Assembly: GCA_028386065.3 (NCBI GenBank)
Contig: JAKUCV010002299.1
Span: 1-64,000, forward strand
Direction of reading: 5' to 3'
Source of the DNA: Turnera subulata
Lineage: Eukaryota > Streptophyta > Magnoliopsida > Malpighiales > Passifloraceae
DNA length: 64,000 nucleotides
Position numbers and translations under genes: made by a program. This document shows positions 2,840 to 39,428 of this stretch, piece after piece. Each line of letters opens with the position of its first letter. The first letter of the stretch is position 1. Under the pieces are notes generated by a model that worked only from the letters and a program-made list of their open reading frames with translations, made no database searches and was not told where the DNA came from.

Positions 2840-3859
2840 AATTTAATTATGTCTTTTATTTATTTAATTTTTAGAATTATGTTAATATTACAATATTTGT
2901 ATCCGAGGCCCTTAAAATTTCCGGAAGAAATTTATCATGGCATTAAAATGTGGAAATGTATTTAAATGATAATAGTCTTGAAGACTCAATAAAAGGAAAA
3001 TGGCAAAGACCGGATGTTTTACCGCCGGAAGATCCTACAGATCCTTTAAAGAAAACTGAAGAAAAACATAAACCGCCAGACGATGGATATTATATGACCA
3101 CCAGAAGATGGATATGACCAGAAAATTTATACTGTATTTATCTTGCTTACCCTGAAGGTGCAAGTCAATATATATTGAATAATTTTTATTTCATTGTTAA
3201 TTGTTATATTTTAAAACATTATGTTTTACAGTATGTTATAATTGTTAATTTTTAATGTGGACGTGAAATTATTGTTGACTCCAGCATTTGTCCTGGAGAC
3301 GATGCAATGACGTATTCCGTATTGAATAAATGGAAATTATATATAAGAAATATATGAAAAGTATGATCTCAAAAGAGAAATACGCTCCAGAAGAGCATGG
3401 ATTTTTAATGAGCTCTTGAATAGCACCATTTCTCCTACCCAAAATGCAACAGTATTCAAGGAGGAGTGGAAAATTGTATGTGAATGTTGTTGCATCTACC
3501 TATATTATACCCCTACAGACTATACCCCTACAACAGATGAATAAACTGTGAAGAACACAAGCTTAACTATGATCTAGAAGATTATATGTTTACGCTCTAG
3601 AAGAGCATAAACTCCTGAAGAGTACAAAATATTCTTGTTTACAGTGATAAAAGAAATTGTTATGGATCCCGTTGGATTGACTCTGCTCTATTCCCTGAAG
3701 CGAATAAGACAGTATAATTAATTGTGTCTATGGCCCTGGATGAGGTTATAATGGCAAAGGGAAAGCATGCATATTATTATTGCATAATGGATCCATAACT
3801 GGAGAACATTCACATAGAGGAATTGTTCTCATACATAAAGTTGAAATAATTATTTATCT

Positions 3860-4204
3860 GTTGGGTACAACATTAACTCTAAAACTCTGAGCCTCACTAT
3901 TAATGTTGACCCTAACACTGTCGTTCCAGGAGAACCACACACCACCCATATTATTTTCTCCAAGTATCTCAAACCGATTTGTTGGAGGAAAACGGAGTGG
4001 AATTACCCCATGGTTCTCTTCAGCTTACCACAAGGTCTCAGTAATCAATACCATGTTAGGTTTGTACTGATTCTTCAGATCCCTTAAGGTACGCACAAAA
4101 TCTTGGGACCTTCTGGCTACACCCCTGCAATTCCATAGTCGAAGTCGTACCTTAGGCCATGTAGGTGGTAACCCAGACACCCTTGGGACACTCCGAGCCA
4201 TCAT
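3860..4204 (-). pseudogene. LINE endonuclease fragment, antisense in copia copy 1
   Basis: On the minus strand the sequence reads like the N-terminus of a plant L1-type ORF2 endonuclease (motifs LWNCRGV, RTLRDLKNQYKPNMVL), with extra stops compared with the better-kept copy at 19521-19871. It begins about 10 bases after the end of the ORF at 4211-4537. There is no reverse transcriptase behind it. Same insertion point as in copia copy 2. Confidence 0.65.
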
Positions 4205-4210
4205 AGAAAC

Positions 4211-4537
4211 CTAATAATAGCTGCTTTGATTTAATATTTGACAAGTAGGCTCTAGCTGGAATTCCTGCATTCTATCTGATATGAAAAACATAATAGAGTT
4301 AGTCGAGCCATAAAAGGAAGCCCTTAGATTGCTTTGGTCCTCTAGGAAGAAAGTCTCTTCCATATGAGTCACAAAGAACCTAGAAGAGTAAAGCTCGTCA
4401 ACAAAAACTAAACGAGGAATTCTTGCGAGTTCACTCGACAGTTCCTCCTGCTGCTCATTCACCATGCTATAGGCTACTCTATTCCTCCTTCCTAGAGAGG
4501 CACCCTCAACAAAGAAAACGGTAAAGGGGGAAGGCAT
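4211..4537 (-). CDS. Conserved unknown 108-aa ORF, antisense in copia copy 1
   Basis: A 108-codon ORF beginning MPSPFTVFFVEGASLGRRNR. It is plainly homologous to the 99-aa ORF at 19905-20204 in copy 2 and has stayed open in both, although the surrounding retrotransposon is full of stops. It has no zinc knuckle, signal peptide or membrane segment that I can see; the centre is rich in acidic and aromatic residues (VFVDELYSSRFFVT, EETFFLEDQ). It lies just upstream of a LINE endonuclease fragment in the same direction, so it may be a remnant of a LINE ORF1 or a captured host exon. I do not recognise the family. Whether it is expressed is unknown. Confidence 0.4.
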   Translation of the reverse strand: MPSPFTVFFVEGASLGRRNRVAYSMVNEQQEELSSELARIPRLVFVDELYSSRFFVTHMEETFFLEDQSNLRASFYGSTNSIMFFISDRMQEFQLEPTCQILNQSSYY

Positions 4538-7311
4538 GTTTTATCTTGTTAATGTTTTTCTGTATGTTTCCATCACATATCTTCCCCCCTTCTTATAGCC
4601 TGAGCTTAGACAGCTAGGTGACAGTTTTCATATATGGACCCTCTTTCTATCTCCGAAAAGATCCAGAAGATTTCTCGGTAATTTGCATTAATTTTCAGAA
4701 AATTCCAAAGCTTTCCAATCCTCGAGGATTTGCTTTTGGAAATGTTTGCCACTACATTAATTATTGCTCAATAATTCTGGTCTTTTTCGATATGAGTGGC
4801 AGAAATAAGCCTAAAATTGGAACATATATTGCTAGCCTGAAGCTAGCAGTTGAGTAATTGAAACTTAACATATCCAGCCAGAAGCTGGAATGCACTAACA
4901 TGGAGCTAGCAATTTTAAGTGTTTAAATACACAGTTTGCACAGCCCGAAGCTGTGATCAACTAGAAGTTGATTATTGGATATCTTGTTTGGCATGACCGG
5001 TTGGGCCATCCCGGATCAATAATGATGTACGAAATTTATTTGGTTATTCATTGAAAAACCAGAAGTTTTTATAATCAATGAATTTTCATGAGTTTGTTTG
5101 CTGTGAAAATTAATTGCTCGGCCATCCTAAGATGAGGTTGGCCTAGAATCACTAGTAATTTTGGGAATAATTCAGGGACATGTACGCGGACTAATAAATC
5201 CGTTGTGTTGACCATCTAGGTAATTTTTACGATGCATCGACTAGATGGTCTATTGCGTGCAAGTTGGCATTATGCGCACTTATTTTAATTATTAACCCAC
5301 CTGCGGGTACACATCCCTAATTATGTTATAAGACTATATGTCTAGATAATACTGGTATATTTCTTCAATGAATAATGTATATCATTGGCAATAAACCCAA
5401 ACAGATCTGGGTGAATATCTCCAATTGATTGCAGGACCATTGTTGATGAAATATTACAGTTTGAGAAAATGGTATTTTACATGCAGCAGTACTTATGTTC
5501 ATCAAGCCAACAAGTTATCATAAAATCTCCCCATTTAATTAGATCATGGTCACGAACCTAGTAACTCTCATCTTCAGACCATTTATTGTACAGTATACGT
5601 ATATAATGCTCCACCACAACATATTTGGTCCTTAAAGAAGACTGGGAATATATGTTGAGTATGTTGGGTATGTTGGTTATTAATATAATGAAAGAGTTTA
5701 CCCAACATAAAGGGGAGGAAATAAGCAGCTGGATCAAGAGTAAGAGTTTATCAAAATACATATCAATGTATGATTCTTGATCCTCAAACAAAATAGAGTG
5801 AACCTGAAGTTCAAAAGATGATTCATTTGCAGGAAATTAATATTCAATTGCCAGACACATTTAAATAATGTGACCAAATTTTATATACCAGCTGCATATG
5901 CTCCTGTTCAAATTGATGTTCCTGAAGAACAACTATTGTATGCAAATGAATCTAAAGTGCGCCAGAAGCGTAGAATATGTTCGGTTCCAAAGAAAACTTC
6001 TCGATAGAGAAAAAGGAGCAAAGATATCAGATGGCCCCAATAAGAAAGTAAGACCTCCAATAGAGGTTCAAATTAAAAGTCCTCCAGAAGAGGTTGGTTT
6101 TTCTGACACAATAGATAAAGTTCTAGAAGTAACTCAGGTACCTGAAATAAGTGAAAATAATGAGATCTCAATTATAGTGTCAGGAATATGATGGAACCGA
6201 CGTGAAATAACCGTCGACGGAATATTTGTTTTATAGCGCTAAATATATATGAAAGAAAATGAGGATCATGAACCTACATCTTTTGATGAATGTAGGCGCA
6301 AAATGATTGGCCAAAATAGAGAAATATAATTAAAGTTGTGTTAGACTCGCTTGTGAAGCGAGGAATTTCTCGGACCTGTAGTCCGTACAACAGTGGTATA
6401 AAACCGGTCAATTATAAAAGGTGTTTGTGCAAAAAAGGGAGAAATAGTGAAATATAAAGCACAGTTTGTCGCACAAAGCACGGCTTGTCGCATGTCGTAT
6501 AAGGTTTTGCTCTACGACCTGATATTTAATTATGAGGAGATAAACTCCCCTGTAGTGGATGCAATTATTTTAAGTGTTTAATAAGTCTGGCAATATATGA
6601 AGATATATGAAAGAATTAGAAATGCATCAAATGAATACTATTACAGCCTATATTTATATGGATCTATAATTCATGACATATACATGAGAATCCTTGAAGG
6701 ATTCACGTTGCCTGAAGCAACTAATTCCCGGGATATATATATTCAATTAAACTAAATTGATCTTTACATAGTTTGAGCCAATGTGGATATGTGTAGTATA
6801 ATTATTCTTGCATATATGCTCTATGTGTTTTATTTAACCAGTATATGTGTGAATTTATTATTATTGTTGCTTATGTTTATAATTTAGATCTATATGTGAA
6901 GTTTTTATTATTTTTGTGATCTGAATACTACTGGAACTCCTGAAGAGGTTTCTAAATCTGTGCTATATTTAAGAAAAAAATTTGAGATATTATTATCAAA
7001 AGTGTATTATTATTAGCAAAGTTGTATTACTACCATCAAGGTTGTATTATTACCTTGATCAAGCTTGTATTATTCCATCAAGAAGTGAATTCCATCCCCG
7101 AATTTTATAATAATGTTCTATTTATCGCCATTAATTGACAAAAACAAGCATTATTCACTGTGGGGCTCAATTATTTAGAACCAAATTTTTTATCCTTAAA
7201 TTATTCGATACAAATTAATTCAATATTCCATAACCGAAGAAAATTAGAATCCGAAGATTAATATAAACTTGGGCTAAAAATATGAAACACAAACATGTAC
7301 GTGATTTGCTA

Positions 7312-9196: not shown

Positions 9197-10082
9197 ATTG
9201 ATACAAGCGGCACTCATTGAGTGCAAGATTTGTGTACTTTGTTAAAAATTTTGTACTCGAATCTTGGTTGAACCCTGGTTAACCCCCTCGACCTCCAAAC
9301 CCTAAGATATCGGGCCGGGTTTGACAACCTTAACCTTGAGTTTTTAGTTTCTACCTAACCAAAATATCGGGACAGAAGAAGTGTACAACATCACAACTAC
9401 GTCGTTTTTGAGTTTCGTCGCATTCCTCTCAGCTGAGAACGATCAACAAACCAAAATCCCTAATTTCTTTGGTTTTTTTTTTGTTTTTCCACTCCGGTTT
9501 GCTCGCTTCTCCAACATCCGGCAATCTCCAATCTTTCTCTCAGCTCCGTTTGCCAATCTCCGCCGTTGTGACTCCTCAGGTTTCAGTTATCTCTTGCATT
9601 CGTAGAATTCGTTTCAACTATATATTTTTTTTAATTGCTCAAAACTGTGATTCTTTGTATTCTATGAGTAAACTTTGTGATAAAAAAGAGTACTCTCTTT
9701 GGATTTGATTTCCTGATGCTGTGTGTGTTTCACTTGGCTTTAGAATTTTAAGGATGTTTCATTCTCTGTTTTAGTTGCCTTGAAAATCAAGGATAATATT
9801 AGAAAATAAAAAAAAAAAAAAGACGAAAGCGAAGAAAGAAAAAAGGAAAAAGCTTTCTCTGTTATACTTGTCTTCCTCTGTTTACTAAATTTGCAACAAA
9901 AATTGAAAGCAAAATTCATGTTTTTGTTTCTGGAAGACGAAACCCATAAGAACGGAAGCAGTGCCAAATTGTGATCTTTTTGCAAACATGCTGACTGGTC
10001 CTGTATTTGTTTTGCTTTCAGCTTTGGCAAACATGGTATGGGCTGAATAAAGCTTGAGCAAAGCACTAAATGGAGCTCAAAC

Positions 10083-12641
10083 TTGCCTCGGAGAACGATG
10101 TTGTCTTCTTACTTGAGAACAGCATCGAAGGTTGCATTGTTCAACATCAAAGACCATGCTTTCTCGATATGTTCTTCTGCTATCAGCAAAACTACTATTC
10201 TTTCTTCTTGTTGTTTCTTCTCTAACTCTGTAAATCACACAAAATCTCTCGTTGAGCAAATCTCTGAAGCTCTTCACTGCCAACGAAACCCTAATCTCTT
10301 GAATCCGGTTCTTATTGCCGAATTGCAACCCCACCATCTACAACCCATTGTAATTTCTCTTCAGTCCAAGCCCTTCACTGCCGTCCGATTCTTTGTATGG
10401 GCAGCCCTGAAGCACCCCAATACACCCCAAACCGAACTGTCCTTTTATGCCCTCCTAAGTGTCTTGCTTTCCAACCGGTTGTTTGGTCCTGCAAATTGTA
10501 TATTTGACAAGTTCGCTGTGCAGTTTGGAACTGATCCTAACATTTTTGGTGAGTTTCATGGTTTTAGTTGGAAGAACAATAGTATTGTGCATGAGTTTTT
10601 GATTGAGAACTATTGTCATAAAGGCAAGATTGATTTGGCTGTTAAGGCGTTCTTGTATGTTCACAAAGAGGGTATCTTGGTCTCACCAGATGTAGTGCAT
10701 GCATTATGGGCTTCTCTCGTTGAGTCTCATCGTATTGATGTGATTCTGGATAACTACGGTGAGCTGTGTTCAGCAGTGAAAGCATTGAAGTTAAGTGTTT
10801 ATGAATTTGCAATGGGTAGGCTTATGGATAAGGGTGAGTTTGAAATGGGTCTGAACTTCCACAAGGCAATGCTTGAGAGAAGGTGGAATCTCGATATTAT
10901 TTCTTGCAATAAAATCTTGAAAAATCTTTGTTCGCAAGGAGAGATTGCAGTTGCATGTGATTATCTTGATATGGTTGTTTCAGTTGGTCCAAAGCCAACT
11001 GTGGTTACATATAGCACATTGATTGATGCTTGTTGTAAAGCAAGATATTTAGGTAAAGCGTTTGAGATTTATAATGATATGATAAAGAACAGTGTGATGC
11101 CTGATTTAATTGTGTATAGCTTGCTCATTGATGGCTTATTCAAGGCAGGAAAATTGGAGGGTGGTAAGCAGCTTCTTTTGATGGCATTGATCAGGGGAAC
11201 CAAGTTAGATGGTGTTGTTTTCAGCTCAGTTATGGATGCATGTGCGAGGACTGGGGATATTAGAAGGATGACTAAAGTGTATAAGACTATGTTGAAGGAA
11301 GGCATTTCCCCCAATATAGTTACTCACAGCATCCTAGTTAGTGGGTTGTGTGAAAATGGTAAGTTAAGGGAGGCTTTTGGAGTGCTTGGTCAGATTGTAA
11401 AGCAAGGTTCGGAGCTTTCTGTTTTCACATATTCTGCTCTCATACATGGCTTATGCGAATCTGGAAATCTGGTCGATGGGATTTTTATGTTTGAGGATAT
11501 GATAAAGAAGGGGCACAAGCCTGATGTTGTTGTTTATGCTGTCATCATAAATGGTTTGTCCAAACAAGGGCTTGTGACTGATGCTCTTAGGTTGTTCTTT
11601 CAGGCTCTGAATGGGGGTCTTGATCCCAATGTCTTTATATTGAACTCCTTGATAGATGGTTGCTGCAGATCAAAACAATTGACAGATGCAGTAAGTGTGT
11701 ATAATGTAATGGGGAAGTTGAGTATCAAACCAGATGTAGTGACCTATACTACACTGTTAAAAGGCATTGCTAAAGCAGAAATGTTGGATGAAGCACTGCT
11801 GTTACTCTTCCAGATGCTCAAGAAAGGCTTCCAACCAGATGTTGTTACTTATTGCACTCTTATTGATGAATTTAGTAAGATGAGAAATCCAGCAGTCGCA
11901 CTGCATATATTTAATTTCATGTGCAAAAGTGGTGTCGCTCCTGATATTGCAACATATAATACTCTTATCAATATGCATATTAGAGAACGTCACTTGCCGG
12001 CTGCAATTGAACTTTTGGGCCATGTTGCTGAGAAAGGACCCAACCCTGATGTCATTACATATAACACCATGATTAGTGGTTACTGCTCCTTCAAAAGGTT
12101 AGTTGACGCACTCCAGCTGTTTGAGAAGATGAAAAGTGGAGGTTTGAGACCGAATGCCATCACATTTACCATACTGATTGATGCTTTTTGTAGAGAAGGT
12201 AGAATGGATGATGCAATGTTAATGTTTTGTAAAATGCTGGAGGTAGGTGCTGATCCCAATGTGATTACGTACAGCTGCTTGATTGATGGTTATCTCAAAT
12301 CTGAAAATATGCAAAGTGGCTTTGAGCTTCACAAAGAGATGCTTGAAACCAACATCTCACCAAATATTGTTAGTTATAGCATCCTTATTGATGGCCTTTG
12401 TAGAAGAGGCCTTATGGAGGAAGCATTGCAAATGTTTCATTGTGCACTAGACAAGCATTTATTGCCTGATGTGATCGTGTATACAATTTTGATTCGTGGA
12501 TATTGCAAGGTTGGGAGAATCACTGATGCCATGATTTTGTATAAGCGTATGTTGTCAAACGGAATCATACCAGACAATTTGTTACAAGTAACAGTTGAGG
12601 AGTATCAACTCCAAGATAGTTGTTCAAACTGTTGTGGTTGA
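10083..12641 (+). CDS. P-class pentatricopeptide repeat (PPR) protein
   Basis: Intact intronless ORF of 852 aa. PPR proteins are sequence-specific RNA binders in mitochondria or chloroplasts that act in transcript stabilisation, splicing, processing or translation. The first ~50 residues are rich in Ser, Arg and hydrophobics with few acids, consistent with an organellar presequence. From about residue 270 there are roughly 16 consecutive 35-residue motifs of the P type (VVTYTTLLKG..., DVITYNTMISGYC...), most ending KP-D or P-N. The C-terminus stops soon after the last motif with no E, DYW or SMR domain, so it should not be a C-to-U editing factor. An alternative start is the Met at codon 6 (10098). 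It resembles Arabidopsis P-class proteins such as At1g31840, but that orthology is unchecked. The upstream 9.4-10.08 kb is pyrimidine-rich and probably holds the 5' UTR. Confidence 0.93.
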   Translation: MPRRTMLSSYLRTASKVALFNIKDHAFSICSSAISKTTILSSCCFFSNSVNHTKSLVEQISEALHCQRNPNLLNPVLIAELQPHHLQPIVISLQSKPFTAVRFFVWAALKHPNTPQTELSFYALLSVLLSNRLFGPANCIFDKFAVQFGTDPNIFGEFHGFSWKNNSIVHEFLIENYCHKGKIDLAVKAFLYVHKEGILVSPDVVHALWASLVESHRIDVILDNYGELCSAVKALKLSVYEFAMGRLMDKGEFEMGLNFHKAMLERRWNLDIISCNKILKNLCSQGEIAVACDYLDMVVSVGPKPTVVTYSTLIDACCKARYLGKAFEIYNDMIKNSVMPDLIVYSLLIDGLFKAGKLEGGKQLLLMALIRGTKLDGVVFSSVMDACARTGDIRRMTKVYKTMLKEGISPNIVTHSILVSGLCENGKLREAFGVLGQIVKQGSELSVFTYSALIHGLCESGNLVDGIFMFEDMIKKGHKPDVVVYAVIINGLSKQGLVTDALRLFFQALNGGLDPNVFILNSLIDGCCRSKQLTDAVSVYNVMGKLSIKPDVVTYTTLLKGIAKAEMLDEALLLLFQMLKKGFQPDVVTYCTLIDEFSKMRNPAVALHIFNFMCKSGVAPDIATYNTLINMHIRERHLPAAIELLGHVAEKGPNPDVITYNTMISGYCSFKRLVDALQLFEKMKSGGLRPNAITFTILIDAFCREGRMDDAMLMFCKMLEVGADPNVITYSCLIDGYLKSENMQSGFELHKEMLETNISPNIVSYSILIDGLCRRGLMEEALQMFHCALDKHLLPDVIVYTILIRGYCKVGRITDAMILYKRMLSNGIIPDNLLQVTVEEYQLQDSCSNCCG

Positions 12642-18327: not shown

Positions 18328-18440
18328 TGGCCGGCAAAGCCGCCTTGCTTCATTTATTGGCCGGCAAAGCCGCCTTATCTCTTTGTTGGTCGGCTAAGCC
18401 GTCTTGTTTCATTTGATGGCCAGCTAAGCCGCCTTTATCG
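18328..18440 (+). repeat. Four imperfect GC-rich tandem repeats
   Basis: About 30-bp units built on TTGGCCGGCAAAGCCGCCTT, each with a small CGGC-(AAA/TAA)-GCCG inverted repeat, in the leader of copia copy 2. Confidence 0.75.
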
Positions 18441-19520
18441 AGTAAGCATATATTATATAGTATCTATTATTATGCTTATTTTTATGATTGGGCTATTAAA
18501 AGGCCCATTGTATTTACTTTCTTGCTTTAATTTACGTTTTGATTGGGCTCGTACAAGGCCCATTGCATTTAATTTTCGTTTATTTAATTTTAATTGTGCT
18601 AATTAATAAAAGACCCATGTTTATTTATTAAGTCTTTTGTTTATTTAGTTTTGGAATTATGTTACAAATATTGGAGGTCCTTAAAATTTTTGGAAGAAAT
18701 TTGTTATGGGTATTGAATGCATTTAAATGCAAATCGTCTGGAAGATGCAATAAAAGAGAAAATAAAGCAAAGACTGGATGTCTTACTGCCAAAAATCCCG
18801 CAGATCTTTGAGGAAAATTGAAGAAAGATATGACCACTAGAAGGTGGATGTTGTATCACCACCAGAAGGTGGATGTTGTATGACCACCAGAAGGTGGATA
18901 TTGTATGACCATCAGAAGATGGATACTGTTCTTATCTTGCTTACCCTGAAGGTGCAAGCCAATATATATTGAATAATTTTATTTTATGTTCAGTTTTATT
19001 ATTTATGCCTTTTATTTTATTTTATTTACTTTACAGCATTTTATAATCCTTTCTAGAATAATGGCTTAAGCATTAGTCTTGAAGACAATGCAAATTGACA
19101 TTCAAGGGGGAGAGTTATATGTGTGGATGTCAACTATTTCACATAATATGTGATAGTACATTCTCGTAATGAGAAAAAGATTAATACGCTCCAGAAGAGC
19201 ATAAGTTTGAATACGTCCCTGAAGACCGCAAGCTTTACTATGATCTAGAAGATCATATATCTACGCTCTAGAAGAGCATATACTCTTGAAGAGTACAGAC
19301 ACTCCCACTTACAGTAATAAAAGAAATTATTATGGATCCTGTCAAATTGACTCTGCTCTATTCCCTGAAGCAAATAAGACAGTATAATTAATTGTGCCTG
19401 TGACTGTGAATGAGGTTATAATGGCAAAGAGAAAACATGCATATTATTATTGCATAATAGATCCATAACTGGAGAACATTCAAAGAGGAATTGTTCCCAT
19501 ACATAAGCATTAATAATTAT

Positions 19521-19871
19521 TTATCTGTTGGGTACAACATTGGCTCTAAAACTCTGAGCCTCGTTGTTGATGTTGACCTGAACATTGTCGTTCCAGGAGA
19601 ACCACATACCACCCATGTTATTTTCTCCAGGTATCTCAAACCGATTTGTTGGAGGAAAACGGAGTGGAAGTACCCCATGGTTCTCTGTAGGTTCCCACAA
19701 GGTTTCAGTAATCAGTACCATGTTGGGCTTATACTGATTCTTCAGATCCCTTAAGGTACGCACAAAATCTTGGGACCTTCTAGTTACACCCCTGCAGTTC
19801 CACAGTAACAGACGTACCTTAGGCCATGTAGGTGGTAACCCTGACACTCTTGGGATACTCCGAGCCATCAT
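19521..19871 (-). pseudogene. LINE ORF2 endonuclease N-terminal fragment
   Basis: Open frame of 116 codons carrying LLLWNCRGVTRRSQDF, RTLRDLKNQYKPNMVLITET and MGGMWFSWNDNV, the start of an apurinic-type endonuclease of a plant L1 LINE, including the catalytic Glu of the ITET motif. It ends well before the remaining endonuclease motifs, and no reverse transcriptase follows. It starts 33 bases after the stop of the ORF at 19905-20204 in the same direction, and is antisense to the copia element around it. Confidence 0.8.
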
Positions 19872-19904
19872 GGAAACCTGATAATAACTGCTTTGATTTA
19901 ATAT

Positions 19905-20204
19905 TTAACATGAAGACTCTAGCTGAAATTCCTGCAGTCTATCAGATATGAAAAACATAATAGAGTTAGCCGTGTCATAAAAGGAAGCCCTTAGAATGTT
20001 TTGGTCCTCTAGGAAGAAAGTTTCTTCTATAGGAGTCACAAAGAACCTAGATGAGTATAGCTCATCAACAAAAACTAAACGAGGAATTCTTGCAAGTTCA
20101 CTCGGTAATTCCTCCTGTTGCGCATTCACCATACTATATGCTAACCTATTCCTCCTTCCTAGAGAGGCACCCTCAATAAAGAAAACCGTAGTTGGGGAAG
20201 GCAT
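19905..20204 (-). CDS. Conserved unknown 99-aa ORF, antisense in copia copy 2
   Basis: Homologue of the ORF at 4211-4537: both start MPSP, share EGASLGRRNR, ARIPRLVFVDELYSSRFFVT and SIMFFISDR, and both are open, although this copy stops about nine codons sooner. Differences by eye are mostly conservative (Val/Ile, Glu/Ala, Phe/Thr). It could be a LINE ORF1 relic, a captured host exon or an antisense ORF belonging to this copia family. No domain is recognised and no function is proposed. Confidence 0.4.
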   Translation of the reverse strand: MPSPTTVFFIEGASLGRRNRLAYSMVNAQQEELPSELARIPRLVFVDELYSSRFFVTPIEETFFLEDQNILRASFYDTANSIMFFISDRLQEFQLESSC

Positions 20205-23200
20205 TTTTTCTTATCTTATTAAGTTTTCTGAATCTTCCTGTTTCTACCACTCCCTTCTTATAGCCTGAGCTAGACAGCTAGGTGTCATTTTTCCAAATAT
20301 GGACCCTCTTTCTGTCTCCGAAAAGATCCAAAAGATTTTTCAAAAATTAAAAAATTTGCATTATTTGTCAATAAACTCCAAAATTTTTCAATCTTCGAGG
20401 AATTGTTTTTGGAAAAGTTTACTGCCACATTTAATTATTGTCCAATAATTCTGATCTTTTTCGACATGAGTGGCAGATATAAGCCTAAAATTGGCACATA
20501 TATTGCAGCCTGAAGCTAGCAATTTAAGTTATCAAACTTACCATATCCAGCGAGAAGCTGGAATGCACTGCCTGAAGCTAGCAATTTTTAAGTGTTTAAA
20601 CACATAGTTTGAACAGCCCGAAGCTGAGACTAACTAGAAGTTGGCTGATAAATATATAATTTATAGCTAGTATGCCCCAGCCAGAAGCTGGTAAATAATT
20701 TTCCTAAGTTATCATTTCCAGCCTGAAGCTGGCACCAACTTGAAGTTGGTACATGGACTTGTTGCTTGGCATGACCGGTTGGGCCATCCCGGGTCAATAA
20801 TGATGCGCGAAATTTATTTGGTCATTCATTGAAAAATCAGAAGTTTTACAATCAATGAATTTCCACGTGTTTATGTGCTGCGAAAATTAATTATACGGCC
20901 TTCCTAAGATGAGATTAGCCTGGAATCACTAGCAAGTTTGGAAATAATTCAGGGACATGTACGCAGACTAATAACTCCTCCGTGTTGACCTTTTAGGTAA
21001 TTTTTACGATGCATCGACTAGATGGTCTATTGTGTGATGCAAGTTGGCATTGTGCGCACTTATTTTAATGATTGAGCCACTTGTGGGTACATATCCATAC
21101 TTATATTATTAAACTGTATGTCTAAATAATGCTGGTATATTTTTTCAGTGGATAATGTATATCATTGGAAATAAACCCAAACAGATCTGGGGGAATATTG
21201 ACAATTGATTGCAGGACCATTGTTAATGAAATATTACTTTTTGAGAAAATGGTATTTTACATGCAGCAGAACTTGTGTGCATCAAGCCAACAAGTTATCA
21301 TAATGTCTCCCCATTTAATTGGTTCATGGTCACGAACCTAGTAACCCCCATCATCGGACCGTTGGTTGTACAAGTGTATAATGCTCCACCACAGTATAGT
21401 AAAATTGGTCCTTAAAGAAGACTGGGAATATATGTTGTGTATGTTGGGCATGAATCTCCATCAATTACAAAGTAATTGAAACCATTGACTAATGATTGGA
21501 GATTTATTTATTATTAATTAAATGAAAGTGTTTACCCAACATAAGGGGGAGAAAATAAGCAGTTGGATCAAGATAGATCAAGATATTATTGAAATGCATT
21601 ATCAATGTATGATTGTTGATCCTCAAACAAATTAGTGTGAATTTGAAGTTCAAAAGATGATTCATTTGCATGAAAAATTGATATGCAATTCTCAGACACA
21701 TAAAGTGACCAAATCTTATATACCAGCTACAAATACTCCTGTTCAAATTGATGTTCTTGAAGAACAATTACTGTAAGCAAATGAATCTAAAGTGCGACAG
21801 AAGCGCAAAATATACTCGGTTCCAAAAGAAAGCAAAAATTCTCGATAGAGAAAAAGGAGCAAAGAGATAAGATGGCCCCGGTAAGAAAATAAGACCTCCA
21901 GTAGAGGTTCAAATTAAAAATCCTCAAGAAGAGGAAAATTCTCCAGAAGAGGTCTCTGACACAATTGATAAAGTTCAAGAAGTAACTCAGGTACCTGAAA
22001 TAATTGAAAATGATGAGATCTCAATTACAGTGTCAAGAATGAGATGGAACCGATGTGAAATAACCGTCAATGGAATATTTATTTTATATAGTGCTAAATA
22101 TTATTAAATAAAATGAGGATCATGAACCTACATCTGTTGGTGAATGTAGGCGCAGAATGATTGGCCAAAATAGAAAAACACAATTAAGGCTGTGTTAGAC
22201 TCGCTTGTGAAGCGAGAAAATTTTCGGACCTGTAGTCCGTACACCAGATGGAGTAAAATCGGTCCGTCATAAAATGTGTATTTGTGCTAAAAAGGAAATA
22301 AATAGTAAGATATAAAGCACGATTTGTAGCACAAAGTTTTACCCAAACGACGTCTATTTATTGTGAGGAGATATACTCCCCTGTGGTGGATGCAATTATT
22401 TTTTTTTGATAAGTCTGGCATTATATGAAAAGAATTAGAAATGCATCTAATGGATGCTATTACAGCCTATTTTTACGGATCCGTAAGTCATCACATTTGC
22501 ATGAGAATCCCTGAAGGATTCAAGTTGCTTGAAGCAATTAATTCCGGGGAATATACAAAATTAAGCTAAATTGATCTTTATATGGTTTAAACCAAATTTG
22601 AGTATGTGTAATATAATTATTCTTGCATATAGGCTCTATGTATTTGCACTTATGATTTAGATACTATTATTGTGATCTAAATATTATTGGAACTCTTGAA
22701 GAAGCTTCCAAATACCGTGCTATATTTCAAGGAAGAATTAAGAAGAATTTGAGATGAAAAATCTCAAGAAAGAATTAGATTGGTCCTGAAGTACCCTATC
22801 AAAGTGCAATTTATCTTACTAGTAACATAAAGCCTGAAGCTTTGACATAAGCCTATTGGCAAGATATGATTGTGCTTTTATTTTCGGGATATAATAGATA
22901 TGACATTATATTAACTCTGTAAGCCCGAAGAGAATATAGTTGGTTTTGCAGATGCAGGTCATTTGCTTCATCCACATAAAGCACAGACAGACATATGCTA
23001 CCACTTTACACATGAAGCTGATATATTATTGCGACCACAAAAGCTAGATGGCAAGGAAGATGTTCCAACAACGAATTATGAGGATAATGCTGCCAACATT
23101 GTCTTATTAAAGTTGTGATGTATCAAAAGTAATCGGACAAAGCATACGTCACCAGATGCCACCAAAAGTTGACAAGGATGATTGGCATGCAACGACATCA

Positions 23201-23364
23201 AGAAATCAAGGGAGGCCAATATGAGGGGGAGTAGAGTACGCACTGCACTCTTTTTTCCTTCACCAAGTTTTTATCCCACTGGATTTTTCTTGGTAAGGTT
23301 TTTAATGAGACAGTTATTCCAAAAAACGTATTCTATCCAAAATACAATAACATTTAAGGGGGAG

Positions 23365-23454
23365 TGTTATGAAAAAACGTGTAAATATTATTGTACCTAC
23401 CCCTACAGTAAAAATGTGTATATAAATAACAGCACATCAAACACCTTAACTTTT

Positions 23455-35230: not shown

Positions 35231-36003
35231 GGGATCGCAACTCGGTAACCCTAACTCAGCTTACCGGCTCTGGAATCCCCCGTTTTTAGGTTCTTCTACA
35301 ACAAAGGCACGAATCGATCAATTGACTCTGGTTTTTCCAGTGAGGGAAAATAGAGGAAAAAAAAACAACCAGGTGAAAGGACGAGGGAATAGGAAAAATG
35401 AAAAAAAAAAAAAAAAAGCCTCCCTATGTAAACGACACGTCATTTACGTGTAGCATGTGGACCGGATGGTAATTTGCTTCAGACTAATTAATTACGAGCA
35501 TGAATAATTAATTACATCATAATTTCAGACTAATTAATTTACGAGTATGAACAAATGAATAAAAATTTTTCAAATAAAAATGCAGTTTTCAGTGACATAT
35601 ATTTCTGTTGCCAAGAGTCTTCTGTTCTGTTGCTTATTTGGAAAAACCTGTTGCTTATTAGCTAATTCTTCTTTTGTGATTGATTTTTGTTTTCATGTCT
35701 CTATTTTGCAGTTTGGTTAAATTTGTGTTAACCACTGCTGTGCAATTAATTTGATCAAGCTTTTGAATACTTCATACCTTGTTGATTATCATTAAAGACT
35801 CATGTTTTACAACTATTTCATCAGGTTATTGCGTTGGCCCCTCAGTATTCCAGCACTGTATGAGCTGCATTTCGTGATTTCATTGGCAAAGGCAGTTCTA
35901 TGTACACTTTAATGTGCACCATGATTCAGCTATGGTGTTTGTAATCCTTAGTTATTTAGAGGCCAAAATCCATATTGTGGACTGAATTGCTCGAGGGGCA
36001 ATA
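35231..36003. other. Cyclin H upstream region
   Basis: The first ~200 bases are the presumed 5' UTR and promoter of cyclin H (minus strand), with a long A-run at about 35400-35416. The rest is AT-rich spacer up to the gypsy LTR. No gene. Confidence 0.5.
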
Positions 36004-36438
36004 TGTCACGCATTGGGATTTTTAGGCACGCAAAGTCCTAGTGTAGGCCAAAATCGTGTACATGTTGGATTGATGATGAGGGGTTTGTTATTTAATTAAA
36101 CTAGTCACTTAATTATGTAACGGGCTTGTATCGTTGTGGGCTTGGACTTGACTAATCCTTGTCCATAAAGAATGAGTGGGGGATAAGAAACCTAGTGTGA
36201 GTGGCTTTTCTTAGGATTACTTGAAGAGCACTCAAGTGTTATTGTATAAATAGCATGAGAGGGGAGGCATTGGGCTGTGTGTGTTGTTGTATTCTTTGAG
36301 CAATAATACTACGGAGATTTCTCCCAAATACTGTGTTCTTATTATTTTGTTTGCTTAGGCTGATCTAGGTATCGTTGAGAACCTAGAGCCCCACGGATAT
36401 TGGGTGTCTTTCCGCTGCGCCATCCTGTGTCCGTGACA
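36004..36438 (+). repeat. 5' LTR of the gypsy element
   Basis: 435 bp, TG...CA ends, with a TATAAATAG box near 36245 and an AATAA-containing segment near 36300. Confidence 0.93.
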
Positions 36439-36881
36439 AGTGGTAGCGGAGCGATTGTGTTTATTCACGGAGGATTCCTGGTGCTGCTGGGCGTGCTGGT
36501 GGGTGCGCCTTTCGTCGCTGACGGGTGCGCCTTCGTTGCTGCTGGGGCGCGCCACCGACCTAGCCTTGGTGCGCTGCTGGGGCGCGCCACCGACCTAACC
36601 TGGGGGCGTTTCTGGGCGCGCCTTCGACTGTGTAGGGGTGCGTTTTCTAGGCGCGCCTTTTTGGTGTTGCTGGTGGGCAGAAGCAAATCGAAAGCGTGGG
36701 TTGCTGGACAAGGAGGGTTCATCAAAGTCAGGTTTGAGTTTTATAATTATAAAATCGACTTGTGGGATTTTGTTGAGCTTGTGGATTTGTTTGGCTTGGT
36801 TGCTGTGATTTGTTGTTTGGTGCCGAATTGTTTGGTTCCTTTTCTGCCAATTGCGATTTGTGTTGAGATTTTTGGTTAAGG

Positions 36882-37784
36882 ATGACTACGGAGAAGCCGC
36901 CTCTTGGGGAACAAGAGACGAGTGTGGTTTCTCAAGAGACATCTGATCCAAGTAAGGATGAACCGAAGGTTGCTGACCCAAAGAAGAAGGCTGACAGGGG
37001 CCGATCTAAGAGTAGGGGTCCAGCGAAGACGGGTAATCCGACAGTGGACGCTGCTGTCCCGATCCTTCAACAAAACTTTGAAAAGATTCAAGAACAGTTG
37101 AATGGACTCGAGGAGAGAGTTGACGAATGTGATGCTGGTGCTGAGGGTAGAACGGAAGAGATTCAAGTGCTGAGGCAACAGCTCACAAATCTTGAAATCG
37201 AAGGGCAGGATCAGTCTCAAACTCTAAGGGAGGAGTTCGACAAGCTGCAGACATCGTTCAAGGGGGCAATCGCTGAATTGCAAGAACAAATTGACGAGCA
37301 GTCGAAGCAACTCGCTGTGCAAGGCCAAAAGTTACGAGAACTGAAGGCCAGGAATATACGCATGGAGGAAGAATTGACTCTATGTAGGAGAGTGCTTGCA
37401 AGTAGAGAGAGAGGTGCATCTGCACACGCACTACCGAAAATTGACATACCTAAGCCTGATACCTATCATGGAACGCGAGTGGCTAAGGAGCTTGACAGTT
37501 TTTTGTTTAGTGTGAATCAATACTTTGCAGGTATGAGGATTACGGATGAGGACCAGAAAGTGCAAATTGCTTCTGGGTACTTCAAGGATGCTGCTTTGCT
37601 TTGGTGGAAACAAAGACTAGAGACCTTGGAGGCGGAAAGGAAGAGACTTTCGTGGGACGAGTTCGTGACGGAACTGAAAGCACAGTTCTATCCCAAGTAT
37701 GCTGATAGGGAGGCGAGAAGGAAAATGCGCAGCCTTAAACAGGGGGATAGTATTCGAAAGTACGTGAAGGAATTTAAGAGCTAA
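36882..37784 (+). pseudogene. Gag N-terminal part, frameshifted
   Basis: The 300-codon frame starts MTTEKPPLGEQETSVV. A basic linker (KKKADRGRSKSRGP) is followed by a long coiled coil (about residues 60-170, many Glu/Gln/Leu heptads) and the retrotransposon gag core (YFKDAALLWWKQRLE, AQFYPKYADREARRKM, LKQGDSIRKYVKEF). It ends in a stop where the family normally continues. The continuing frame resumes about 18 bases later (KFEIPRMPDSEAL), so one base has been lost near 37775. Gag forms the virus-like particle that packages the RNA. Confidence 0.88.
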
Positions 37785-37801
37785 AGTTTGAAATTCCACG
37801 C

Positions 37802-38950
37802 ATGCCAGATTCTGAAGCGTTGGATATGTTCGTTGGAGGCTTGCAAGATTGGGCACAAATGGAGGTCGATAGACGCGAAGTTGAGACCTTGGTCGATGCT
37901 ATTCGAGTGGCTGAGTCCTTAGCAGATTACAAGGGAGACAAGCCGAAAAGCTCTAATCACCAGGATGGCGATTCTAAAGGTGGTGGAGAGAAGGCTAAGT
38001 TCGAGAGTTATACATCATCGACAAAGTCAGGTGACGCCAAATCAGGGAAAGGAGACAAAGGTGATGATAATAAACCGTGGGAATGTTTTCTGTGCAAGGG
38101 TCCACACAGTGTTCGCGATTGTCCAAAGAAGCATAGGCTTTCTGCGGTAGTGAAACACATCGAATCTGAGGAGCAAGCTCAAAACAAGCATGGAGGTGGG
38201 GTCAGAATGGCACCACTAGAAAGACTCAGAGCCATAGATGCTACGGCTAAGCCAAGCAAGAAGGGACGGATGTTCATTCGAGTTCAAGTTGGAGGTACGG
38301 AGTTGGATGCTTTGGTTGACAGAGGTGCGACTCACAATTTTTTACAAGCCAAGACGGCCAGAGAATTGGGGATTCGGTACGTGCCACAAGAGAGCACAAC
38401 TACCATGAAGACGGTGAACTTGGAGGCACAACCTATTGTGGGGTTAGCATATGACATGAAGGTTCGCATTGGTAACTGGTGTGGACGGCTAGAGTTTACT
38501 GTGGTGGAGCTTGATGATTATCCTATGGTACTTGGCATGGAGTTCTTGGATAAAAAAGAGGCATTGATTTTTTGCAAAGAGGGTTCGATTGTACTTGATG
38601 GTGTGCAGCCACGCTGCGTCTTGAGCACTATGCGAGAATCAACCTTGGGAGCAATATCAGCGGCAAAGATGGCTTTGGAAACGGGGCAAACTAGTGTGGA
38701 AAAACCAAACGAGGCAGAGGTAAAGGCAATACCAAAGGAAGATGAAGTTCCTACGGATAGGCAACCACCTCGCATGTGGATAAAGGCACACCGGGTTCTT
38801 CGGTGTACGGAGGATGCTGTTGTGTTCAAGTATCTAGTCAAGTGGAGGGATCAACCTGAAGCGAGATGGGTGCACGAGGACAAGCTGAATCGGTTTGGAC
38901 GGCAAGTGGCTTCCTATCTACGGAAGGCAATGAGGGCATTGCCTGAATAG
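37802..38950 (+). CDS. Gag C-terminus, protease and chromodomain fusion ORF
   Basis: A 382-codon ORF. It contains the end of gag, a zinc knuckle (CFLCKGPHSVRDC, about residues 98-110) and a retropepsin-like domain with LDALVDRGATHNFL, where the usual D-S-G or D-T-G is D-R-G, so protease activity is doubtful. The fold continues to DYPMVLGMEFLDK. After about 60 linker residues comes a chromodomain (VFKYLVKWRDQPEARWVHEDKL), normally found at the end of integrase, where it guides insertion to chromatin marks. Everything between protease and chromodomain is gone, with the frame kept. Met 37802 is internal to gag; translation would originally have come from 36882. Confidence 0.88.
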   Translation: MPDSEALDMFVGGLQDWAQMEVDRREVETLVDAIRVAESLADYKGDKPKSSNHQDGDSKGGGEKAKFESYTSSTKSGDAKSGKGDKGDDNKPWECFLCKGPHSVRDCPKKHRLSAVVKHIESEEQAQNKHGGGVRMAPLERLRAIDATAKPSKKGRMFIRVQVGGTELDALVDRGATHNFLQAKTARELGIRYVPQESTTTMKTVNLEAQPIVGLAYDMKVRIGNWCGRLEFTVVELDDYPMVLGMEFLDKKEALIFCKEGSIVLDGVQPRCVLSTMRESTLGAISAAKMALETGQTSVEKPNEAEVKAIPKEDEVPTDRQPPRMWIKAHRVLRCTEDAVVFKYLVKWRDQPEARWVHEDKLNRFGRQVASYLRKAMRALPE

Positions 38951-38961
38951 GTGGTGGAGAA

Positions 38962-39398
38962 TGTCACGCATTGGGATTTTTAGGCACGCAAAGTCCTAGT
39001 GTAGGCCAAATTCGTGTGCATGTTGGATTGATGGTAAGGGGTTTGTTATTTAATTAAACTAGTCACTTAATTATGTAACGGGCTTGTATCGTTGTGGGCT
39101 TGGACTTGACTAATCCTTGTCCATAAAGAATAGGAGTGGGGGATAAGAAACCTAGTGTGAGTGGGTTTTCTTAGGATTACTTGGAAAGCACTCAAGTGTT
39201 ATTGTATAAATAGCATGAGAGGGGAGGCGTTGGGCTGTGTGTGTTGTTGTATTCTTTGAGCAATAATACTACGGAGATTTCTCCCAAATACTGTGTTCTT
39301 ATTATTTTTTTTGCTTAGGCTGATCTAGGTATCGTTGCGAACCTAGAGCCGCACGGATATTGGGTGTCTTTCCGCTGCGCCATCCTATGTCCGTGACA
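38962..39398 (+). repeat. 3' LTR of the gypsy element
   Basis: 437 bp, matching the 5' LTR apart from scattered substitutions and small indels. Confidence 0.93.
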
Positions 39399-39428
39399 AA
39401 TAGATGTACTTTCCAAATCGAAGACCAA

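Follow-up and report, generated by a model that had tools for sequence, protein, structure and literature searches.

One-stranded arrays of hairpins with a common YNGAA loop in a probable non-autonomous copia-derived retrotransposon of Turnera subulata

Multiple dispersed packaging signals have already been proposed for some RNA viruses, where stem-loops that share a short apex motif are described as scattered along the RNA on otherwise variable stems (PMC6281560). Here we describe a similar arrangement in a long terminal repeat (LTR) retrotransposon probably derived from copia, two copies of which lie in a 64,000-nucleotide stretch of Turnera subulata DNA (contig JAKUCV010002299.1, positions 1 to 64,000 of the forward strand; this whole stretch is called the window). 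Both copies, and their relatives elsewhere in the genome, carry hairpins of the form stem-C-YNGAA-G-stem far beyond chance and almost exclusively on one strand; the elements have no sense gag-pol frame, and the inner pairs of the stems change more slowly than their surroundings. The difference from the viral case is that the RNA is that of a retrotransposon without gag-pol and is known from DNA sequence and predicted folding.

Among retrotransposons, the LARD and TRIM groups resemble this element in having LTRs, a primer-binding site (PBS), a polypurine tract (PPT) and recent mobility together with the lack of sense gag-pol; the array of same-loop hairpins and an antisense open reading frame (ORF), which by its codon-position divergence is under purifying selection, set the element apart from them. 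TARE1 of tomato likewise combines a high copy number and a copia-like make-up with short LTRs, and it is reported to be mutated and to have amplified recently, but its PBS (TGGTATCAAGAA) and PPT (TGAGGGGGGA) are unlike those found here, and the words "hairpin" and "stem" are absent from the main text of its description (PMC3701649). The AACA/TGTT LTR retrotransposons of Rosaceae are also copia-derived, and two AACA families are described as having no genes; however, they are named after atypical terminal dinucleotides, whereas the LTRs here read TG...CA in six of seven loci inspected, and neither "hairpin" nor "stem-loop" occurs in the main text of their paper (PMC5659011). Searches of open-licence papers turned up no account of comparable hairpins in LTR retrotransposons, which is weak evidence of novelty.

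Hairpins in the window and across the genome

An initial annotation of the window had counted at least 15 of these hairpins in copy 1 (2840-6990), all in one orientation and in excess of chance. We found 25 CYNGAAG cores on the plus strand of copy 1 and 1 on the minus strand; if stems must pair perfectly over 4 bp or more, with the closing C-G counted, 15 of the 25 plus-strand cores formed hairpins, and the single minus-strand core did not. In 1000 dinucleotide-preserving shuffles of copy 1 the mean was 1.62 cores (maximum 9) and 0.024 hairpins (maximum 1). These counts rule out chance or base composition as the source of the hairpins; the initial observation was real and had been understated. 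Copy 2 (18.6-22.9 kb) gave 27 cores and 12 hairpins on the plus strand and 2 cores and 0 hairpins on the minus strand, and its shuffles averaged 1.88 cores and 0.037 hairpins. By blast, the two copies are 81% and 87% identical over their two longest blocks and 72% over a third; the window outside them contains 0 hairpins on the plus strand and 1 on the minus strand. A tally of the 5-nt loops that close perfect stems of 5 bp or more in both copies put C|NNGAA|G first (20 of 51 counted, 6 of which were artefacts of the inter-copy spacer), followed by C|NNGTA|G with 3.

All hairpins of copy 1 lie on the plus strand. The 5'-most are AAATTTC-CGGAA-GAAATTT (2915-2933; 7 bp, intact in 12 of 21 aligned rows) and AGTC-TTGAA-GACT (2974-2986; 4 bp, 8 of 21), followed by three more 4-bp stems, GCTC-CAGAA-GAGC (3384-3396; 16 of 20 rows), GCTC-TAGAA-GAGC (3594-3606; 11 of 14) and ACTC-CTGAA-GAGT (3611-3623; 11 of 14). 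Longer stems then follow in a group: TGCTAGC-CTGAA-GCTAGCA (4830-4848; 7 bp), whose central 17 nt are matched at 291 places genome-wide, and the 6-bp stems TCCAGC-CAGAA-GCTGGA (4873-4889; 13 of 21), CACAGC-CCGAA-GCTGTG (4939-4955; 15 of 21), ATCAAC-TAGAA-GTTGAT (4956-4972; 14 of 21, most other copies having ACCAAC/GTTGGT) and AAAAAC-CAGAA-GTTTTT (5054-5070; 18 of 21). Further downstream are TGAAC-CTGAA-GTTCA (5799-5813; 5 bp, 15 of 19), TGTTC-CTGAA-GAACA (5917-5931; 5 bp, 14 of 21), CCTC-CAGAA-GAGG (6081-6093; 4 bp, intact at the main site in 8 of 20), GAATCC-TTGAA-GGATTC (6688-6704; 6 bp, 15 of 21, the site of an A-T/G-C pair exchange) and GTTGC-CTGAA-GCAAC (6707-6721; 5 bp, 17 of 21). A variant with a YNGTA loop, CGGAC-CTGTA-GTCCG (6371-6385, plus strand), is present in both copies, starting at 22225 in copy 2. 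The five examples quoted in the initial annotation (4831-4847, 4956-4972, 5054-5070, 6688-6704 and 6708-6720) were all present as located, with two stems to be lengthened: the first is really 7 bp (4830-4848) and the last 5 bp (6707-6721).

The hairpins of copy 2, also on the plus strand, fall at 19188-19200, 19239-19257, 19265-19277 and 19281-19295 (span 19188-19295), in a cluster at 20614-20626, 20677-20691, 20718-20732 and 20734-20750 (span 20614-20750), and at 21752-21766, 22505-22521, 22525-22537 and 22829-22843 (span 21752-22843). The 5' part of this copy contains repeats of other kinds. By eye, about four GGCCGGCAAAGCCGCC-like short tandem hairpins with an AAA or TAA triloop lie at 18328-18440, and GGGC/GCCC inverted repeats at about 18489-18568. 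At 18840-18925 tandem units contain CCACC-AGAA-GGTGG, a GAAG core on a 4-nt loop.

The genome (519 Mb) was searched and 26 loci (L009-L034) were taken around matches to the 17-nt centre of one hairpin. All of these were fetched through one intact hairpin, so that their share of intact hairpins is biased upward; L061, fetched by its reverse transcriptase (RT) fragment, and the two window copies are the exceptions. L025, which contains many N, was omitted from the site table and from the wobble, shared-change, divergence, covariation, 27-copy loop and inside/flank counts. In the sense orientation (5' LTR, PBS, PPT, 3' LTR) each of the 26 loci carries 10-23 hairpins; the opposite strand of the 20 longer loci has 13 in total at the 4-bp limit, and for these 20 loci both counts take in flanking DNA. 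Inside the elements (19 loci, 89.3 kb) there were 321 sense and 4 antisense hairpins, compared with 6 and 5 in the flanks (51 kb). L061 has 17 sense hairpins and 1 antisense. With stems of at least 5 bp, C[NNGAA]G hairpins in 27 copies numbered 293 sense and 0 antisense; the loop starts with C or T in 280 of the 293, and 26 different 5-nt left arms were found among them. The YNGTA form of the loop is also present but rarer than YNGAA. In the alignment, 28 sites are intact in at least 4 of 21 rows, and in four elements with paired LTRs the hairpins extend from 1.0-1.3 kb to 5.3-5.6 kb of a 5.9-6.1-kb internal part, a spread of about 4.5 kb.

The stem pair ACCAAC/GTTGGT around any 5-nt loop occurs at 1,326 genome places, compared with 49 for the reversed pattern, and the loop is YNGAA in 46 of the first 50 distinct places listed among the 1,326. 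Another genome pattern, AAAGTTGCYNGAAGCAACT, gave 10 matches and was a poor choice, its flank being too specific. Hairpin number and LTR identity were not significantly correlated over 13 loci (Spearman 0.55, p=0.051). One hairpin, CTCGC-CCGAA-GCGAG, is tandemly duplicated two or three times in L023, L028 and L031, and most other rows have a 7-nt loop (e.g. TTGTGAA) on a similar stem at this site; in these three loci the canonical loop seems to have been acquired and then multiplied.

Sequence conservation of the hairpins

In seven copies with LTR identity of at least 97.6%, the background pairwise divergence was 12.3%, compared with 3.1% and 4.2% at the first and second stem pairs and 6.1% at the closing pair, for sites chosen from the copies measured and with copy pairs below 65% local identity dropped. 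In the loop of the same copies, the last A diverged by 4.4%, the first base (a C/T swap) by 16.8% and the second base by 20.7%. The test was repeated with sites chosen in copy 1, copy 2 or L019 only and measured among 12 other copies, a set with LTR identities down to 95% from which copy pairs below 60% local identity were dropped. For the sites from copy 1, copy 2 and L019, respectively, divergence was 11.6, 13.3 and 10.8% in the surroundings, 2.4-5.2, 2.9-7.5 and 2.4-3.3% over the closing pair together with the first two stem pairs, 1.1, 2.4 and 1.7% at the last loop A, and 19.5, 23.5 and 25.5% at the first-base pyrimidine. By this comparison of sequences, the hairpins look preserved by selection.

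At the site represented by 6688-6704 in copy 1, a pair exchange can be followed across the genome. In searches with the loop fixed as CTGAA, a left A was accompanied by a right T in 95 of the 100 places listed out of 705, and a left G by a right C in 92 of the 100 listed out of 796.

The host element and its surroundings

The host of the hairpins is a high-copy, recently mobile LTR retrotransposon, probably non-autonomous and derived from copia. LTR-like direct repeats were found in 13 of 22 elements, with 108-256 bp matched (mostly ~200-250) at 91-100% identity; the search, which loci cut short or containing N could escape, found no LTR pair for copy 1 or copy 2. Because the LTR pairs are 91-100% identical, the family moved recently. 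In all seven inspected loci, CGTTATCAG stands as PBS where the 5' LTR ends, and the PPT, a purine tract rich in G (AAGGGGGAG or a near variant), lies ahead of the 3' LTR. By eye, the TG...CA ends of six of these loci have CA on at least one side and L024 ends in TA; a 5-bp target-site duplication is present in six, the exception being L026. A border like that between PPT and LTR in the inspected loci is found at 23356-23371 on the plus strand of copy 2, where a probable PPT (AAGGGGGAG) is followed by the putative first bases of the 3' LTR (TGTTATG).

Over the hairpin-bearing span of 29 copies the longest sense frame is 62-145 aa, the value of 145 belonging to an inserted stretch of L018. Remnants of pol were detected in two of six fragments searched (RVT_2, E=0.098; gag_pre-integrs, E=0.0044), both below the Pfam cut-offs. 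Copy 1, taken in the initial annotation for a coding copia copy, is not one and retains decayed pol remnants only. Among the 150 genome matches to the RT remnant that were scored, out of 2,924 candidates, no open frame exceeded 126 aa. Just 3' of the 5' LTR and upstream of the hairpins, a number of the loci L009-L028 have frames of 110-319 aa, open from stop to stop, on both strands; seven sense frames from this region (146-319 aa, seven loci) gave no Pfam match. A protein search with a sense remnant gave no match, two DNA patterns searched in viral contigs found no relatives, and none of the elements examined was both coding and hairpin-bearing.

On the opposite strand, the element contains an ORF of ~227 codons (reference L024:5258-5938, plus strand of that locus). 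Divergence among 20 copies was 0.062, 0.037 and 0.177 at codon positions 1, 2 and 3. Divergence at third positions is 4.8-fold that at second positions, and an antisense message may therefore exist. The ORF is broken in a number of copies, including both in the window: on the minus strand of copy 1 its remains (4028-4540) consist of two open pieces, 4214-4540 and 4028-4210, with no listed hairpin in them, and on that of copy 2 (19524-20210) of the pieces 19908-20210 and 19524-19904. The antisense-ORF segment is poor in hairpins, with 11 sense hairpins in 18 kb compared with 321 in 89 kb of the whole interior (19 loci). Searches with its product found no Pfam match, no homologue, no solved structure and no relative in viral contigs, and comparison with two minus-strand ORFs of the window, one with DUF4283, gave no real match; fold prediction from 17 rows gave no usable fold (mean predicted local distance difference test score, pLDDT, 29). 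The C-terminal half of the product may resemble the start of a LINE endonuclease.

Elsewhere in the window, two direct repeat units of 439 bp (96.8% identical) lie 3 kb apart at 36003-39399, enclose ORFs for gag and protease, and mark a gypsy-type element that contains 0 of the YNGAA hairpins. Between copies 1 and 2, an open frame of 864 aa encodes a PPR protein (10047-12641; PPR_2, E=4.4e-173), and upstream of copy 1 there is a tandem duplication of ~120 bp (1983-2231, 90.6% identical).

Possible readers of the hairpins

That one apex recurs many times on differing stems, along a single strand of an RNA that lacks gag-pol, suggests a repeated site for one RNA-binding protein. We propose, with a probability of roughly 40%, that the hairpins are dispersed RNA sites for a single protein, most likely the Gag/nucleocapsid of an autonomous copia partner. 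Every C-[YNGAA]-G apex would bind one and the same protein, for which this Gag/nucleocapsid is the candidate; the stem would merely present the loop, so that its sequence may drift while pairing is kept, and many weak sites would together give avidity. Packaging, reverse transcription and reinsertion of the element RNA would then take place in trans. Since non-autonomous LTR elements depend on the proteins of another element for packaging, the most economical account would be dispersed packaging signals that a partner's Gag recognizes. Of the RNA roles named in the initial annotation, protein binding or packaging remains the leading candidate, and translation control of gag-pol is unlikely, given sense frames of 62-145 aa.

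The proposal is backed by the hairpin counts relative to shuffles, their strand bias, the missing sense gag-pol frame, the high identity of the LTR pairs, the slow change of the inner stems, the pair exchange, the hairpins of L061 and their absence from coding-intact copia elements. Several observations weigh against it. Six coding-intact copia elements of this genome, whose longest sense ORFs measure 1322-1359 aa, contain 17 sense cores and 0 hairpins on either strand, and 20 RT regions of coding copia elements, taken from 150 RVT_2 matches listed, also have 0 on either strand; among these elements no partner whose Gag would read the hairpins was found. Wobbles in the stems fix no strand, with 58 G·T and 59 A·C overall; outside the closing pair the sense strand is not favoured (31 G·T vs 54 A·C), and shared events are 8 vs 6. 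These counts use rows in which at least 15 of the 21 letters at a site agree with the commonest letters, and the shared count omits the site at column 7519. In predicted local folds the sense and antisense strands had an equal mean pair probability (0.50-0.63 in three copies), and weak folding was predicted for several hairpins. Conservation is low at the fourth stem pair, which diverged by 9.9% in the seven copies and by 10.0, 7.7 and 9.6% in the 12-copy test, and the second loop base, so variable in the seven copies, diverged by only 5.7-8.9% in the 12-copy test. Covariation, which the initial annotation had proposed to look for, has one strong site in the pair exchange, but the sum over sites did not exceed slid controls: pair-preserving distinct double changes over 28 sites numbered 12, compared with 4-16 in slid controls (rows with fewer than 14 of 21 letters matching the commonest at a site dropped). 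The A-T/G-C case was itself picked post hoc and may represent one old event or a subfamily split.

The main rival, in our judgment unlikely, is that a host RNA-binding protein binds the hairpins and serves, for example, nuclear export, stability or silencing escape of a long non-coding RNA. The anatomy of a fixed loop pattern on varied stems, expected for Gag sites, is expected here too, and such a protein fits with the fact that the elements examined included no hairpin-bearing coding element. A pentaloop is reportedly read by the human RNA recognition motif (RRM) protein RBMY, and its relative Tra2 is said to have a GAA site. These are the only similar apexes that can be named, and no paper was found when at least five of six such terms were required together.

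Less probable still is that the functional strand is the antisense one, either as an antisense-ORF transcript with C-UUCNR-G hairpins, perhaps bound by the protein of that ORF, or as folded minus cDNA. Purifying selection on the antisense ORF in the same element would agree with this, as would the excess of A·C over G·T outside the closing pair; the Y of the sense loop becomes an R in the antisense loop, which allows U-A or U·G across it, and the local folding prediction is compatible with antisense folding. At the closing pair, however, the wobbles point to the sense strand, U·G being more frequent than C·A (27 G·T vs 5 A·C), although the closing G may be constrained otherwise, the shared changes are balanced, and the hairpins flank the antisense ORF on both sides.

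A strand-biased mutational process acting without selection, for instance a reverse transcriptase that switches templates and thereby perfects near-palindromes, would yield perfect stems with pair-preserving changes and tandem units such as the three consecutive CTCGCCCGAAGCGAG copies in L023. It explains neither one loop pattern on 26 different stems nor inner stem positions that change ~2-5 times more slowly than their surroundings in the younger copies, and the hairpins are absent from the six coding copia elements; we therefore regard the purely mutational origin raised in the initial annotation as very improbable. The suggestion that Pro-Glu codons of pol create the core, which has in its favour that two sites (6688-6721) lie on remnants of an RT Pro-Glu stretch, is refuted for the copies examined and has next to no probability, because the host has no gag-pol ORF, coding-intact copia elements are hairpin-free despite their sense cores, and at the 6688 site (formerly Pro-Glu-Gly-Phe) the G-C form of the stem is still paired where L024 reads Ser and copy 2 and L061 read Phe.

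To our knowledge, how non-autonomous LTR retrotransposons are recognized by the proteins that move them is poorly understood. Returning to the proposal of dispersed sites for a partner's Gag, it is conceivable, if rather tentative, that the element has been reduced to an RNA "address", in which selection would keep ten to twenty-odd hairpins along with LTR, PBS, PPT and the antisense gene; such an element would parasitise the particles of another, and hairpin number itself would be selected. A hairpin with a fixed loop, present 10-23 times per locus and in one version at more than 1,000 genome places, is a directly testable candidate signal, and its 26 or more natural stem variants offer a way to separate loop from stem. 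With it, dispersed packaging signals would be extended from RNA viruses to LTR retrotransposons, or a host protein exploited by such RNAs would be revealed.

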